A stretch of DNA of 64,000 nt from an archaeon (GTDB taxonomy: Archaea > Thermoproteota > Nitrososphaeria > Nitrososphaerales > Gagatemarchaeaceae), in contig JAKAOG010000001.1 of the NCBI GenBank assembly GCA_021823325.1, forward strand, positions 186,001 to 250,000, written 5' to 3'. The position numbers and the translations under genes are program-made. The notes beneath the pieces were generated by a model that worked only from the letters and a program-made list of their open reading frames with translations, was not told the DNA's origin and made no database searches. Shown here piece by piece: positions 105 to 6,079 of this stretch; positions within the stretch are counted from its first letter, which is position 1; each line of letters starts with the position of its first letter.

Positions 105-482
105 CTAAGCGTCTCCAGATCCGAGGCCGTACTTCTCGGCGGCCCTCGCCTGCATGGCTCTGATCTCTCTGATACGCTTCGACATCTTCCTTCCGAACAT
201 GATGTCTCTGATCCCAGCGTAGAGCCAGAGCAAGGACACCGCAAGGCTCAGCGCTCCGACGGCGACCAGGCCCGGATCGACCAGGTTCACCCTCTGGCTC
301 GTTATCCCAAGCACATAGGGGAAGACGACCAATTGGGCGAAGTAGTTTACAGCGAAGTAGGCTCCCGCGACGGTCGCGATTACTGCGAGGAGAGTGATCT
401 TCCTCCCCCCGCTTTCCACGTGCTGGATGAACTCCTCGTGCATCTCTATCGTCGACACGCCTGGGTCATCGTCTTCGGGCAT
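105..482 (-). CDS. Small two-helix membrane protein, unknown function
   Basis: This 125-residue protein has an acidic N-terminus, two hydrophobic segments (about residues 28-50 and 68-90), a short loop between them and a basic C-terminal tail, so it should be an integral membrane protein. I do not recognise a family. A TATA-like element at 505-512 lies 23-30 bases upstream of the ATG, which fits a leaderless transcript. A near-palindrome at 521-531, matching sites upstream of the neighbouring winged-helix gene, sits just beyond this TATA box. The protein is therefore a likely regulatory target of that neighbour. Function unknown. Confidence 0.65.
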   Translation of the reverse strand: MPEDDDPGVSTIEMHEEFIQHVESGGRKITLLAVIATVAGAYFAVNYFAQLVVFPYVLGITSQRVNLVDPGLVAVGALSLAVSLLWLYAGIRDIMFGRKMSKRIREIRAMQARAAEKYGLGSGDA

Positions 483-504: not shown

Positions 505-531
505 CCTTATAACAGATGCTCACAACTTGTT
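505..531 (-). promoter_or_regulatory. TATA box and candidate operator of the small membrane-protein gene
   Basis: On the minus strand a TATA-like element lies at 505-512. Next to it at 521-531 is CACAACTTGTT, a near-perfect inverted repeat (ACAA-N-TTGT). It overlaps the stop codon of the winged-helix gene and resembles the two copies at 823-847. Operator function is inferred from position and recurrence. Confidence 0.45.
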
Positions 532-794
532 CACCGCGTCGCCGAGAAAAGCATCTTCAACCCCGTGTCAAGGTGATGCAGCGCTTCCATCCCCTGGGGG
601 GTGATGGCGTACCGCTCGTGCTCTTCCGAAGAGTCGACCTTCACGAGGCCGCCCGACGTGAGGACCTGCACATAATCTCCGAACCTGTCATACGGGACGT
701 TGACCACCCGCGACAACCTTGTTGGAAGCTGGGGGCCGCCGGCGAGCGCCCGCAGGATCTCCCAACAGATCACGGTCGTGTCGCGGTGCTTCAA
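531..794 (-). CDS. Winged-helix DNA-binding regulator
   Basis: The 87-residue product looks like a single winged-helix domain: a helical start (TVICWEILRALAGG), a recognition-helix region (RLSRVVNVPYDRFGDYVQVL), a wing (GLVKVDSSEEHERYAITPQG) and a final helix. It resembles the small archaeal regulators of the HTH_45 type. The start is a TTG at 794, placed about 26 bases downstream of a TATA-like box at 816-823. Two copies of a CAAGTTG-containing motif lie immediately upstream of that box and a third lies upstream of the next gene. This suggests autoregulation and control of the downstream membrane protein. The ligand is unknown. Confidence 0.7.
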   Translation of the reverse strand: MKHRDTTVICWEILRALAGGPQLPTRLSRVVNVPYDRFGDYVQVLTSGGLVKVDSSEEHERYAITPQGMEALHHLDTGLKMLFSATR

Positions 795-815: not shown

Positions 816-876
816 ATGATATGAACAAGTTGAGCTCACAAGTTGTGTGCTCAAGATGTGCGTCAGTGACTTAAGC
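816..876. promoter_or_regulatory. Divergent promoter region with two operator-like repeats
   Basis: This stretch separates the leftward winged-helix gene from the rightward pseudo-ATPase operon. It holds a minus-strand TATA-like element (816-823), a motif GAACAAGTTGAG (823-834), the perfect 11-base palindrome CACAAGTTGTG (837-847), and a plus-strand TATA-like ACTTAAGC (869-876) about 26 bases before the TTG at 899. The repeats could place both divergent units under the winged-helix regulator. That role is inference. Confidence 0.5.
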
Positions 877-898: not shown

Positions 899-2122
899 TT
901 GATTTCAAACGCCAGAGACTGGCTCGGATATCCTCTGGACAGGTCTCGGACGCCAGTCGGGGTCCGCGGGCTGGGAGACAGGGTCCTCCTACTTGGAAGA
1001 CAGGCTGGGGCCCTGGCGTCTCTGTTCGCGTTCGCCAGCGCTCAGGCCGGGTTGAACCTCGCCATCCTAGACCTCGATGGCTCGATAGCGCCTCAGTTGC
1101 ACGGATACTTCGAAGCATTCGACTACCGGTCCATGCTCTATGAGGCGTTCCACCTCGAAGGAGACGACGCTATACACGGGCAGCTCGTCGCTTCGGCCTA
1201 CGCAGCCGCCTTAGACCTTACCCCAGAGGAGGAGGCGATACTCTCGGCAGCGCTGCAGAAGCTGTCCGAGCAGAACGACGTGGCCGCTCCCGCGGCGCTT
1301 TACGATGTAGTCGGGGCGACCGAAGGTTTCAGAGGCTTCTATGTGGACAAGCTGAAGGGAAGGATAGGCGCTCTCAAACATCTCGATTCCACGCGCGTCG
1401 AAGACTTCGCCCCGCTGATGCGCGGGGGTGCCCTCGTGAGCTTCGCTTCGGCCCCATACCCACAGGCCGCCGACCTGGCGGCAGGCCTGTACGTGGCGAA
1501 GATCCTCCATCTCCTCTCGGCTCCGGGACCACGTCCATACGCAATGATGGTCACCGGGGCCCATCGGCTGTTCAGGAATCTTTCCAGGTACCAGCACGCC
1601 GGGAGGCTGATGTCTCATCTCCTGGAGGCTAGCGCCCCTCTCGTCCTCTCCACCCCTCTCCCGGCCCTCCTGAACGACAAGCTGACGGAGTCGATGGCTG
1701 TCCGGGTCTACTCTAGCGAGGCCTGGAACGCCAGGAGGAGTTGGAGGCAGGAGGCCGCCCTCGCGTGCTCTTTCACAGTCTGCGACGACAGGTCGGGTTC
1801 TTCGACCGCGTTCGTCCCCCGCTTCATCAGGCCGAGAAGTCCCTCTTCGCGCCTACCATCCGCGCCCCAGCGCAGCGCCGACCCCAGACTGACAAGGACC
1901 ATACTGGAGGAGATATCGAGCTACGACTCCGCGAACCGGCAGTCGATAGTCTCGTTCCTCTCCCCTCAGTTTCTTTCCGCCGACGTCGGGGCCGAAGTAG
2001 ACAGGCTCCACTCCGAAGGGTTCCTCGTCCTAGAGCCCAAAGGGAGCGGAGGAGGACAAAAGGTCCTTTCGTACACCGTGACCGAGTCCGGGATGCGCCT
2101 GCTGCAGGAGCTGAGCAAGTGA
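899..2122 (+). CDS. HerA/FtsK-like pseudo-ATPase with C-terminal winged helix
   Basis: The 407-residue protein has the layout of a HerA/FtsK-type motor without its catalytic residues. At 31-41, where a Walker A loop is expected, it reads LLGRQAGALAS, with no GKS/T. LAILDLDGS at about 54-62 resembles the conserved strand after the HerA P-loop. YAMMVTGAHRLF at about 214-225 resembles a Walker B strand (usually DEAH) with TG in place of DE. A helical insertion occupies about 95-165, and residues 330-407 look like a winged helix. The TTG start fits a leaderless promoter. The stop overlaps the next ATG by one base (TGATG), so the genes are probably translationally coupled. Family assignment is by pattern and is moderate; loss of ATPase motifs is visible directly. 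Confidence 0.5.
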   Translation: MISNARDWLGYPLDRSRTPVGVRGLGDRVLLLGRQAGALASLFAFASAQAGLNLAILDLDGSIAPQLHGYFEAFDYRSMLYEAFHLEGDDAIHGQLVASAYAAALDLTPEEEAILSAALQKLSEQNDVAAPAALYDVVGATEGFRGFYVDKLKGRIGALKHLDSTRVEDFAPLMRGGALVSFASAPYPQAADLAAGLYVAKILHLLSAPGPRPYAMMVTGAHRLFRNLSRYQHAGRLMSHLLEASAPLVLSTPLPALLNDKLTESMAVRVYSSEAWNARRSWRQEAALACSFTVCDDRSGSSTAFVPRFIRPRSPSSRLPSAPQRSADPRLTRTILEEISSYDSANRQSIVSFLSPQFLSADVGAEVDRLHSEGFLVLEPKGSGGGQKVLSYTVTESGMRLLQELSK

Positions 2123-3129
2123 TGGACCACCTGCGAACCAACTGCGCGGCCGTAGACGCGCTTACCGATGGGGGCCTCGCCACAGGTACGATTACTCAAA
2201 TCTTCGGCGAGAAGGCCCTCGGGAAGAGCATCATCTCCTTCCAGGCGGCGTGCTCGGTCGCCGCGGCTGGTGGGAGCACCGTAATCCTCGACACGGAACA
2301 GTCCTACTCGAGCTATCTGGTCCCATATTGGAAGGACAGGATGACCAAGCGGTTCGAAAAGGAATTCAACGTAGCGGAAGTAAAGCTGGACCGGGCGCCG
2401 AAGACCTCTCCCCGCAGGAAGCCTGTCACCCGCGGCCAGCTGATTAACGCGATTGATTCGGCCCTAAACCACCTGGGAGTGTCATATACCGACGCCCATC
2501 TTGGCGCGGCCGCTGACATCTTCTCCCCAGATTATTCGGTCGAGCTCCCACCCAAGGGGCCATCGGTGCTGATCTTCCAGACCCCGGAGGTGGTAGATCT
2601 GCTCAACCTCCATGGCGTCGATGCCGCGAGGGAGGTGTCGAGCGGGGGGAGGGTCGAGCTCAAGATGAGGCAGACCCCGACGTACCAGTCTGCCCTCCAC
2701 CACATCATACGCGAGACAGGGGCGCGGCTCTTGGTCTACGACTCCATCTCGGCTCCCTTCAAATCGGCGTTCCCCAGCACTCAGGACCTCCCCGCCAGGA
2801 GCTCGGGCCTGGCCATGATCCTCGCCCACGCCCAGCGTCTCTGCGTGGAGTTCGGCATAGCCGTCCTTGTGACCAGCCACGTCTCCATCGACCCGATCAA
2901 CCCATGGGACAGGGTCCCCTACGGCGGGGTCATCTTGGGTCACGACGCCAAGTTCTCGCTGGAGTTGACCAAGGCCGCTGCGTCCAGGAACAAGGACAGG
3001 GACCCAGAGGCGGTCAACCCCGAAGAGAGGGAGAGGAGCACCAAGGCGTTCTGGGCCGCCCGTCACCCTGCCCTCGAGGAGTACACCAGGTTCGCTTATG
3101 CGTGCCAAGACGGGGAAGGGTTCCACTGA
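2122..3129 (+). CDS. RecA/RadB-like ATPase
   Basis: This 335-residue protein belongs to the RecA/RadA/KaiC fold. It has an intact Walker A (GEKALGKS, about 29-36), a Walker B-like strand (ARLLVYDS, about 201-208) and a C-terminal core (VLVTSHV, then YGGVILGHDAKFSLELTK) that matches the L2 and final-strand region of RadA/RadB. About 100 residues between the first and later core strands (roughly 75-185) are extra compared with a minimal RadB. There is no N-terminal helix-hairpin-helix domain. The ATG overlaps the previous stop by one base, and its own stop overlaps the next ATG. A DNA-dependent or filament-type ATPase working with its two neighbours is inference. Confidence 0.7.
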   Translation: MDHLRTNCAAVDALTDGGLATGTITQIFGEKALGKSIISFQAACSVAAAGGSTVILDTEQSYSSYLVPYWKDRMTKRFEKEFNVAEVKLDRAPKTSPRRKPVTRGQLINAIDSALNHLGVSYTDAHLGAAADIFSPDYSVELPPKGPSVLIFQTPEVVDLLNLHGVDAAREVSSGGRVELKMRQTPTYQSALHHIIRETGARLLVYDSISAPFKSAFPSTQDLPARSSGLAMILAHAQRLCVEFGIAVLVTSHVSIDPINPWDRVPYGGVILGHDAKFSLELTKAAASRNKDRDPEAVNPEERERSTKAFWAARHPALEEYTRFAYACQDGEGFH

Positions 3130-4160
3130 TGGGATGGGCGACGAAAGCCGCAGCAGCTGTCTTAGGGGTCGGGGCACTGGGAGCTGGCGTCTGGCCTGTC
3201 TCCCTGCTGGCGTTCGGATACCTAGCCTTCTGTTTCTTGAGGCCCGGGAGAGCGACGCCGGAGGCTGACGCTCGCTCCAAGACGAGGCTCCCATCGGGCC
3301 GCCTTGTCCTAGGTGGCGTTCTGCTCCTCCTCTCCGTCGTAGCGTTCAGAGAGGGTGGGGTCGTCTCTCCAGCTGTCTTCCTGCTGGCTGGACTCGGCAT
3401 GGTCGCATACCCTTCTGCAAGGGCCAGAGCGGCGGCGAACCGTGTGGTCCCCATGAGGGATTCGATCCTGCTCAGGGAAAGAGCGTTCCCGTTCCGCTGG
3501 CACGCTTTGGCAGAGGTCAAGCTCGAGGCCCAGGACCGGGCGAGAGGGCTCAGCCTGGTAGACGGGCGCCTCCTGCTGTTCATCGGGAAGTCTCCACGCG
3601 CCTTTCAGGTGGTGACGGTGCTGGCTTTGAACCACCGCGGGGCCGAGCGAAGAGTCATCGAAGCGCTAAGACGAGAGACAAAGGCCATGTCTCAAAGAGG
3701 GGTTCATCTCCTTCCGCTCGACAGCATGGAGGCTTCTAGAATGCTCTCGCTGAAGCTCAAGCGTCTTAGGTCGGGGTCCGTGGACTGGAACGTCGTCCCG
3801 ACAGACTCCTTTGACGTCCTCGCGCTGCAGGCGAGCGACGGAATCTTACTCCGAAAAAGGGCGTTTAGGGCAGGCGTGAAAGGGGGGCCCGCATTCATCC
3901 CACCCGTCGACGCAACCCCCATGAGAGAGCCTCTCCTGGCGGAGGTCGTCGAGGCGATATCAGAGCGCCACGGCTGGGCCAACCCTGACGAATTCTCGCC
4001 GTTCCTGGCGTCCCTCGATGCATCACGGGCGGAGCCGCTCGCCGAAAGGCTGACAGTGACCGACGGCGCCGACGGCACGGTGTCTGCGGTCTCCCTGGGA
4101 GGGGCCCAGGTGAAGCTCACGAGGTCGCAGCTAAGGGCGGTCGCAAGGGTCTACGCGTGA
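3129..4160 (+). CDS. Membrane-anchored protein with two repeated soluble modules
   Basis: The 343-residue product starts with hydrophobic segments at about 5-37 and 58-95, which are probably four helices or two hairpins. A soluble region of about 240 residues follows. That region carries a duplicated motif: DSILLRERAF near residue 107 and DGILLRKRAF near 239. This suggests two related modules. I do not recognise the family. The gene is coupled to the RecA-like gene by a one-base stop/start overlap and ends the operon. It could anchor the pseudo-ATPase/RecA pair at the membrane; this is inferred from gene order alone. Confidence 0.55.
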   Translation: MGWATKAAAAVLGVGALGAGVWPVSLLAFGYLAFCFLRPGRATPEADARSKTRLPSGRLVLGGVLLLLSVVAFREGGVVSPAVFLLAGLGMVAYPSARARAAANRVVPMRDSILLRERAFPFRWHALAEVKLEAQDRARGLSLVDGRLLLFIGKSPRAFQVVTVLALNHRGAERRVIEALRRETKAMSQRGVHLLPLDSMEASRMLSLKLKRLRSGSVDWNVVPTDSFDVLALQASDGILLRKRAFRAGVKGGPAFIPPVDATPMREPLLAEVVEAISERHGWANPDEFSPFLASLDASRAEPLAERLTVTDGADGTVSAVSLGGAQVKLTRSQLRAVARVYA

Positions 4161-4231: not shown

Positions 4232-6079
4232 TTGAGCGGAGCTGGAATCGACGATTCACTGGAGGTCGCTGTCCCCGAAGAGGGCGCGGAGTCGCCCTTC
4301 AAAGTGCGGCCGTCGCCTCCGCCGGACCTGCCCATCTTCTCCATCTTGGGGTCGATCGACTTCCATGAGCACTTCGTGCTCATGGGCGAAGTCGGGACCG
4401 GAAAGAGCACCGTGGTGCCCATCCACGAGTTCGAGAAGTCGGGGCGGACCAGGCAGATCCTAATCCGTGAACCTTCCAGGGCTTCATGCAACGCCCTCTA
4501 CTATTCCCTTGAGGCGCTGCACCCCGAAGTCAAGGAACACCTCGCCATCATAACCAAGGACACCAAGGTCAACGTAGAAGGCAAGATCAAGATCGTGACC
4601 GACGGCGTCCTCATCAGGATGCTGGCCGACCGTTCCGTCAACGACTCATCGATCTACTTCGACGAAAGCCACCAGATGTCGTCGCAGCTGGAGCTCTGCA
4701 TGTCGCTCGCGAAGAACGACGAGGCCGAGACGAGGAACCTGTTCAGAGTGATGAGCGCCACCATCGACCCCAAAGAGTTCCTCAGCTTCCTGGGGATCTC
4801 GAACCTCCACTCCGTGAGCGGAAGGAGGTTCCCGGTCAAGGTCGAGGTGGAGCTGGCGCGCAACCTGGACGGGATGTTCGACACCATGTCGAGGTATCTC
4901 TACACCCAGCCCAAGGACGAGTCATGGCTGGTCTTCCTTCCAACCAGGCGGCTCGTAGAGAAGTATGCCGGAACTTACGGAGGGGTCTACATCCACGGCG
5001 GGCTTGAGGGGACCGAGGTCAACAGGATCCAGCGGAAGGCAGAGAAGGACAGGAACCTGAAGATCTTTGCCACCAACGTCATAGCCTCTTCCGTCAACAT
5101 CTACGTCGACAACGTCCTGGTCTTCAACGACGTCATCAATAGCAGGGACAGGCTGGGTCAGAAGACCCTAAGGTACGGCAAGCTGGACAACAACTCTCTC
5201 TTACAGATGATGGGAAGGGTGGGGAGGTTCAAGCCGGGACGGGCGGTGATCCTCACCGACTCTCCCGTTCCGGTCAGGATCGACCCGGTCCCGGTCCGAA
5301 AGGCCCTGGAGACCGAGACCCCGTTCGACCTGGTGCTCCTGATGTCGAAGTACGGCCTCGACCTTTCGAGCCTGGAATTCATGTCCAGGGTGAACCACAA
5401 GGAGGTGGCTTTCGCAGCGGGGTGGCTCACCGATATCGGGGCTATCGAGCACATGCCTCGCAGGATAACCCGGAAGGGCCTGCTGATGAGCGAGATACCA
5501 TACGACCCCGATTTTTCGCACATGATCGCGAACGCCCTGCTGTCTGACGACTACGCCATCGGGAGATTCCTTCTGGCCTGCGGCGCCTTCGGCGACTCCC
5601 TCAACCATGCCTACAAGACGGAGTTCGAGCCTCTGGCTAGGGAATTCCTGTACAAGACAGACAGGTCCAACGAGCTCAACATCAAGGCGCACCTGCTGAA
5701 GCGGTACTCCGAAGACGACTCCGGCGCTTTCAAGGAGAGGATGGCGGCTAACGGGATCTTCCCCCGTTTCGTGGAAGAGGCATGGAAGAACTATCAGTCT
5801 GCCGTCGACTCCTTGAATGACGTCCTAGCCGAATGGAAGTCCGAGCCTATCCCGAAGGGGGTCGTCGTCGACCCTGACCTCTACCGCCTTGAGTCGTATC
5901 TTTCTGACTGTCTGTCCTTCGAAAGGTACGAGTTCCATGAGAAGGGGAACTATGACCTTAGAAACATACGCATCGAGGACAGGTTCTTCGCCAGGAGCGT
6001 GACGGTCAACCTGAGGAAGATACTGTTCGACGTGGTGGCCATGGAGCCCAGGAGGCACCGGCCGCACGGGCGTCGGTGA
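4232..6079 (+). CDS. DEAH/RHA-like superfamily 2 helicase
   Basis: This 615-residue protein carries Walker A GEVGTGKS (52-59), a Walker B box of DESH instead of DEAH (144-147), SAT (175-177), and a motif VI of QMMGRVGR (325-332). These identify an SF2 helicase closest to the DEAH/RHA group. The C-terminal third resembles the helical regions after RecA2 in that group but is not clearly assignable. The start is taken as TTG at 4232; no ATG precedes the P-loop in a better position. An RNA substrate is likely from the family but is not shown. Confidence 0.75.
   Translation: MSGAGIDDSLEVAVPEEGAESPFKVRPSPPPDLPIFSILGSIDFHEHFVLMGEVGTGKSTVVPIHEFEKSGRTRQILIREPSRASCNALYYSLEALHPEVKEHLAIITKDTKVNVEGKIKIVTDGVLIRMLADRSVNDSSIYFDESHQMSSQLELCMSLAKNDEAETRNLFRVMSATIDPKEFLSFLGISNLHSVSGRRFPVKVEVELARNLDGMFDTMSRYLYTQPKDESWLVFLPTRRLVEKYAGTYGGVYIHGGLEGTEVNRIQRKAEKDRNLKIFATNVIASSVNIYVDNVLVFNDVINSRDRLGQKTLRYGKLDNNSLLQMMGRVGRFKPGRAVILTDSPVPVRIDPVPVRKALETETPFDLVLLMSKYGLDLSSLEFMSRVNHKEVAFAAGWLTDIGAIEHMPRRITRKGLLMSEIPYDPDFSHMIANALLSDDYAIGRFLLACGAFGDSLNHAYKTEFEPLAREFLYKTDRSNELNIKAHLLKRYSEDDSGAFKERMAANGIFPRFVEEAWKNYQSAVDSLNDVLAEWKSEPIPKGVVVDPDLYRLESYLSDCLSFERYEFHEKGNYDLRNIRIEDRFFARSVTVNLRKILFDVVAMEPRRHRPHGRR

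Follow-up and report, generated by a model that had tools for sequence, protein, structure and literature searches.

A conserved gene trio encoding a HerA/VirB4-fold pseudo-ATPase, a RadA-superfamily ATPase and a membrane protein in one archaeal class

What could three archaeal genes do together when the first encodes a protein of motor fold without an ATP site, the second an ATPase related to RadA and the third a membrane protein? This question was raised by a locus near the start of the window, that is, the whole 64,000-nt stretch of DNA analysed here, which comes from an assembly of 0.92 Mb and approximately 86% completeness. The three genes, designated A, B and C, were laid out as follows:

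899..2122, plus strand: gene A, 407 aa from a TTG start, pseudo-ATPase of HerA/VirB4 fold ending in a winged helix
2122..3129, plus strand: gene B, RadA-superfamily ATPase, 335 aa, without an N-terminal domain and with an insertion of ~90 residues
3129..4160, plus strand: gene C, membrane protein, 343 aa

Both the A/B and the B/C junctions read TGATG in the window sequence, with a one-base overlap, and these junctions recurred in nearly all orthologues of the same family (f1). Together with the gene order conserved in relatives, they bore out the coupling that the original prediction had read from the overlaps. At the position of the A start (TTG 899), the orthologues carried either ATG or TTG. 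The dN/dS values were about 0.03-0.5 across A, B and C, indicating purifying selection on all three genes, and B was the best conserved protein of the trio. Between the trio and EF-2, the window (4232-6079) encodes a 615-aa DEAH-type helicase with an HrpB-like core (NCBIfam HrpB 1e-32, far below the cut-off), which was found at the matching place in only some relatives.

Searches with the single sequence of gene A came back empty in Pfam and NCBIfam, and no PDB sequence match was significant. An AlphaFold model of A was built from 15 orthologues (pLDDT 83, pTM 0.74), and a Foldseek search of this model against the PDB placed HerA, VirB4 and TrwB first, at probability 1.00 and E values starting at 7e-7. 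Among the solved relatives, VirB4 had the best target-normalised TM-score (0.55-0.59). The relation to HerA appeared weak when a shallow profile was compared, and a deeper alignment turned the matches significant: in hhalign, the deep A profile matched the HerA paralogues of its own genome with E 7e-9 to 2e-8, and across the 273 aligned columns the Walker regions coincided. Judged from the model, A has the HerA/VirB4/TrwB motor fold. The structure search had been set beforehand as the refutation test of the HerA likeness, and A came out as HerA-type. The relevant parts of A were located at the following positions:

986..1015, plus strand: degenerate, shortened Walker A position (A residues 30-39, LLLGRQAGAL)
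1544..1573, plus strand: degenerate Walker B position (A residues 216-225, MMVTGAHRLF)
1883..2116, plus strand: C-terminal winged helix-turn-helix (A residues ~329-406; DSSP pattern of the model)

The loss of Walker A, claimed originally from the GRQAGAL of the window, extended to the whole family, as GK[ST] was found at this position in 0 of 27 distinct f1 orthologues. In the profile alignment, the P-loop region of A was also ~3 residues shorter than that of intact HerA, indicating that Walker A was lost by deletion and not by substitution alone. Walker A was missing as well from the A proteins of families f18 and f20 and from the ORFs at the A position in f19; the inactive state is thus ancient and maintained by selection. 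At Walker B, the claimed loss of both acidic residues was only partly borne out. It holds for the window (TG), and the first acidic residue (Asp) was gone in all 27 f1 sequences, but the second is still acidic in 9 of the 27 (five with Glu, four with Asp); the others, including the window, have Gly. The acidic pair was thus lost stepwise; the loss of both is a trait of the clade of the window, and some deeper orthologues retain the second. The purifying selection on A indicates a maintained pseudo-enzyme rather than a decaying pseudogene.

The DSSP pattern of the model and weak MarR/PadR-type matches agreed with the winged helix that had been proposed at the C-terminus of A. At the other end, A begins ~30 residues ahead of the P-loop position and has no HerA-type N-terminal domain; in the 599-aa HerA-type paralogue, the stretch matching A starts near residue 234. 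Thus, compared with HerA of the archaeal HerA-NurA resection helicase, A shares the motor fold and the profile match to HerA paralogues, whereas it lacks Walker A and the N-terminal domain, has no NurA match among its neighbours and carries an extra C-terminal winged helix. In the same genome, the P-loop is intact in three genes of HerA/DUF87 type (L097, L098 and L099), and the HerA-like gene on L099 adjoins a NurA-domain gene. Genome G023 carries the A-B pair in more than one copy (G023:C66:276628-278858). One of them has in-frame stops in A and B and is possibly a decaying copy or the product of a mixed assembly (6% contamination).

Gene B matched Pfam Rad51 (4e-17) and starts at the Rad51 core, without the N-terminal HhH domain. 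Its main features were the following:

2206..2229, plus strand: intact Walker A (B residues 29-36, GEKALGKS)
2308..2571, plus strand: conserved insertion relative to RadA/RadB, approximate limits (B residues ~63-150)
2725..2745, plus strand: Walker B (B residues 202-208, RLLVYDS)

The GKS of the P-loop was kept in all full-length f1 sequences, and the P-loop, catalytic Glu and Walker B were retained across all families with B. From these intact motifs, B is predicted to be an active RecA-superfamily ATPase, in keeping with the RecA fold and P-loop noticed at the outset. The catalytic Glu and the Walker B Asp are separated by ~148 residues in B versus ~59 in the RadA of this genome, which puts the insertion, first estimated at ~100 residues, at ~90 aa. 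In addition, the sensor Gln of RadA (TNQV) is replaced in B by His (TSHV).

The description of B as RadB-like did not hold. B scored 61.7 bits against the RadB NCBIfam equivalog, which has a cut-off of 172.4, and was also far under the cut-off of the RadA equivalog. It formed its own clade (support 100/99 and 99/98) apart from RadA and RadB-like proteins, and a canonical RadA and a RadB-like gene are present elsewhere in the same genome. Seven of eight KaiC-like sequences were separated from B by a split with 95/96 support in a tree that had no named aRadC reference; we are unsure of the exact sister group of the B clade given the long branches. A defence origin of A, B and C was considered and dropped, as PADLOC gave no match, and so was a phage origin, as the phage families matched only the core of B.

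The first distribution searches confined the module to one family, which was overturned by a deeper A profile. Strong B matches were found in 30 of 37 f1 genomes. In the five f1 genomes without A (G003, G024, G021, G364 and G384), four of which are at least 90% complete (two of these four with 6% contamination), B was also missing in 5/5, so A and B were lost together. The absence of the module from some near-complete f1 genomes (G003 and G024) indicates that it is not essential. With the deeper A profile, relatives came to light in two further families of the same class, f18 and f20, where A lies directly upstream of a B scoring 267-305 bits, with RadA and RadB-like proteins scoring far less, and where the third ORF after B has N-terminal membrane helices. 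Overall, B was found in 19 genomes of f18, f19, f20 and f24, and in f1, f18, f20 and f19, A immediately precedes B with an overlap or close to one. The order in f19 is an ORF of ~400-426 aa at the A position, lacking Walker A and having a C-terminal winged helix, followed by B, a ~120-aa ORF with four transmembrane helices (4-TM) and usually a soluble ORF; thus, C appears to be divided between two ORFs in this family, one 4-TM and one soluble (L183-L187 and L190-L192). In f24, represented by one genome and a short contig (L182), B adjoins a C-like gene with no A beside them.

Profile comparisons connected the families to different degrees. For A, f1 and f20 aligned over the full length (E 4e-14), and f1 aligned over the winged helix with f18 (E 1e-8) and f19 (E 6e-6). 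For C, f1 and f24 gave an E of 2e-5, and the other family pairs were marginal (0.007-0.012, over a C-terminal motif only), compared with ~0.5 in the control comparisons of A against C. On these figures, the case for homology of the f19 A, and of C between families, depends in part on position and architecture. Outside the class, no B was found in phylum searches of 398 sampled genomes each, a sampling in which rare cases may be missed. The flanks of the trio outside f1 are housekeeping genes that differ between families, indicating that the trio is the unit, and no gene for DNA processing, such as a nuclease, relaxase or pilin, consistently adjoined it. The A-B-C module is therefore old and conserved, and the gene-order conservation on which the original prediction depended holds even between families of the class.

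One alternative is that A and B form a recombination mediator on RadA filaments, as RadB, aRadC and Rad51 paralogues do, with A as the obligate partner and C providing only membrane retention. RadB is a recombination mediator (PMC5480776), aRadC is a further group of RadA paralogues (PMC4080772), and Rad51 paralogues commonly act with a partner protein (PMC5480776, PMC4080772). Like RadB and aRadC, B is a RadA-superfamily core without the N-terminal domain that is additional to the RadA of the genome, and its closest profile is Rad51/RadA. However, the trees put B outside RadB and the main KaiC-like group, B has ~90 extra conserved residues and a fixed linkage to A and C, and the order A-B-C persists despite great sequence change, whereas the described RadB needs neither a membrane protein nor a HerA-like partner. 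We consider a mediator role unlikely on this evidence.

In f1, the trio is accompanied throughout by two divergent genes, and short palindromes were located beside them in the window:

105..482, minus strand: gene for a protein with two transmembrane helices (2-TM), beside the trio in f1
522..530, no strand assigned: ACAACTTGT, operator-like palindrome, 40-48 nt ahead of the point where the 2-TM gene starts
531..794, minus strand: winged-helix gene, HTH_45/Sso10a-like, 87 aa, candidate regulator, divergent from the trio
825..833, no strand assigned: ACAAGTTGA, degenerate copy, 13 bp from the exact copy
838..846, no strand assigned: ACAAGTTGT, operator-like palindrome, upstream of A
870..876, plus strand: CTTAAGC, TATA-like, ~29 nt ahead of the A start, largely conserved in f1

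The winged-helix and 2-TM genes were absent when tested outside f1 and are thus f1 accessories. The trio as originally delimited stood, but in f1 the locus is larger, including the winged-helix gene, the 2-TM gene and a private palindrome. The palindrome ACAASTTGT occurs in exactly two copies in the whole assembly, both at this locus; as controls, the reversed pattern occurs 11 times per strand in the assembly, and the chance figure for the window was 0.11. Among f1 loci, 14 carried ACAASTTGT ahead of A (as copies spaced by 13 bp), ahead of the 2-TM gene or at both places, with no exact copy elsewhere in the locus. The exact site was not found in four deeper f1 loci that retain the trio. This pattern of ACAASTTGT marks a private regulon, and the 87-aa winged-helix protein is likely the regulator acting there. 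A parS-like role of the palindromes was set aside: on both sides they sit immediately ahead of TATA-like boxes, which is more simply explained by a transcription operator. The spacing of CTTAAGC to the A start suggests a leaderless A transcript.

These regulatory elements bear on another possibility, namely that the trio is a membrane signalling or transcription switch, in which a KaiC/ArlH-like ATPase (B) works with a promoter-regulating winged-helix pseudo-ATPase (A) and no DNA is moved. The MarR/PadR-like winged helix at the end of A, the operator-like palindrome of the f1 locus and the His of B in place of the RadA sensor Gln would fit such a switch, and B shares with ArlH/KaiC-like archaeal ATPases a single RecA-fold domain encoded next to a membrane protein gene. 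Nevertheless, the small separate winged-helix gene is a simpler candidate for binding the palindrome, the exact palindrome is missing from deep f1 loci that retain the trio, and the sequence of B is nearer to Rad51/RadA and groups closer to RadA/RadB than most KaiC-like proteins, which split off. A switch of this kind is thus quite improbable.

The third protein, C, has two recognizable parts:

3135..3425, plus strand: ~four membrane helices in two hairpins (C residues 3-99)
3441..4157, plus strand: soluble alpha/beta domain of ~240 residues (C residues 105-343)

The helices were predicted at residues 3-19, 22-37, 56-74 and 79-99, and a hydrophobic N-terminus was present in every C orthologue checked, in line with the N-terminal membrane helices assigned at first. 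No family or fold for C was found in Pfam, the PDB or Foldseek; the C model was weak (pLDDT 66), which leaves its fold search weightless. C showed no similarity to the 599-aa HerA/VirB4-like protein of this genome.

The Ced and Ted systems combine HerA/VirB4-clade ATPases with membrane channels (PMC9905601, PMC11868833). VirB4, CedB-CedD and TedB are of the same fold class as A, and in these systems, too, a HerA-clade protein is associated with membrane proteins. The module departs from Ced, Ted and type IV secretion systems in that A has no ATP site and a RadA paralogue is added. A reduced type IV secretion or Ced-like DNA transporter, in which A derives from VirB4/CedB, C provides the membrane parts and those resembling the VirB4 N-terminus and B replaces the motor, would suit the TM-score of VirB4 and the division of VirB4 functions among separate genes in archaeal Ced systems (PMC11868833), yet it is the least probable of these readings, as C has ~4 helices and not 6-7, none of the neighbouring genes was recognised as a VirB6/CedA-type channel or a pilin, and C resembles neither the 599-aa protein nor, in its low-confidence model, any known fold.

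We favour, tentatively and at somewhat less than even confidence, a reading in which A, B and C form one membrane-anchored DNA-handling complex with B as the sole ATPase, A as scaffold and C as anchor. It rests on the near-constant pairing of a dead A with a live B and on the membrane subunit beside them, and we infer the physical complex, its DNA substrate and the process alike. In such a complex only B would bind and hydrolyse ATP, acting as a switch or motor of the RadA kind. A, which retains the motor fold but is predicted to be unable to bind ATP phosphates, would serve as a scaffold for B and may bind DNA or a partner through its winged helix. C would fix the complex in the membrane through its ~four helices and present its cytoplasmic domain. 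ATP turnover in B could then serve to load DNA at the membrane, to move it or to hold it there, and the most likely task would be recombination-coupled entry or exchange of DNA, or its tethering for recombination. HerA, VirB4, TrwB and FtsK, the relatives of A, and RadA and RadB, the relatives of B, act on DNA; by analogy, DNA is probably the substrate. Counting against this reading are the weak homology of C between families, the occurrence of B-C without an adjoining A in f24, the lack of a constant DNA-processing neighbour, the dispensability of the module in some f1 genomes and the ability of winged helices to bind protein instead of DNA. A bolder proposal is that this one archaeal class has a categorically new membrane machine, with a RadA paralogue providing ATP-driven motion to a dead HerA/VirB4-type subunit so as to move or hold DNA at the membrane. 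It is doubtful on present evidence, though we give it more weight than the alternatives above.

The A-B-C gene set was found in none of the Ced, Ted, RadB or aRadC systems. As the original prediction had it, no described system with this set was found in a search of mostly open-access literature. We know of no HerA/VirB4-class protein that several families of one class maintain in a catalytically inactive form. Likewise, no RadA paralogue locked to a dead HerA/VirB4-class protein and a membrane protein has been described to our knowledge. If the complex is real, the trio would be a compact three-gene target for biochemistry and would tie ATPases of the recombination type to the membrane in poorly known archaea. 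Should the membrane-machine reading prove true, RecA-fold engines would have a further use, in addition to recombinase filaments and HerA/VirB4 rings.
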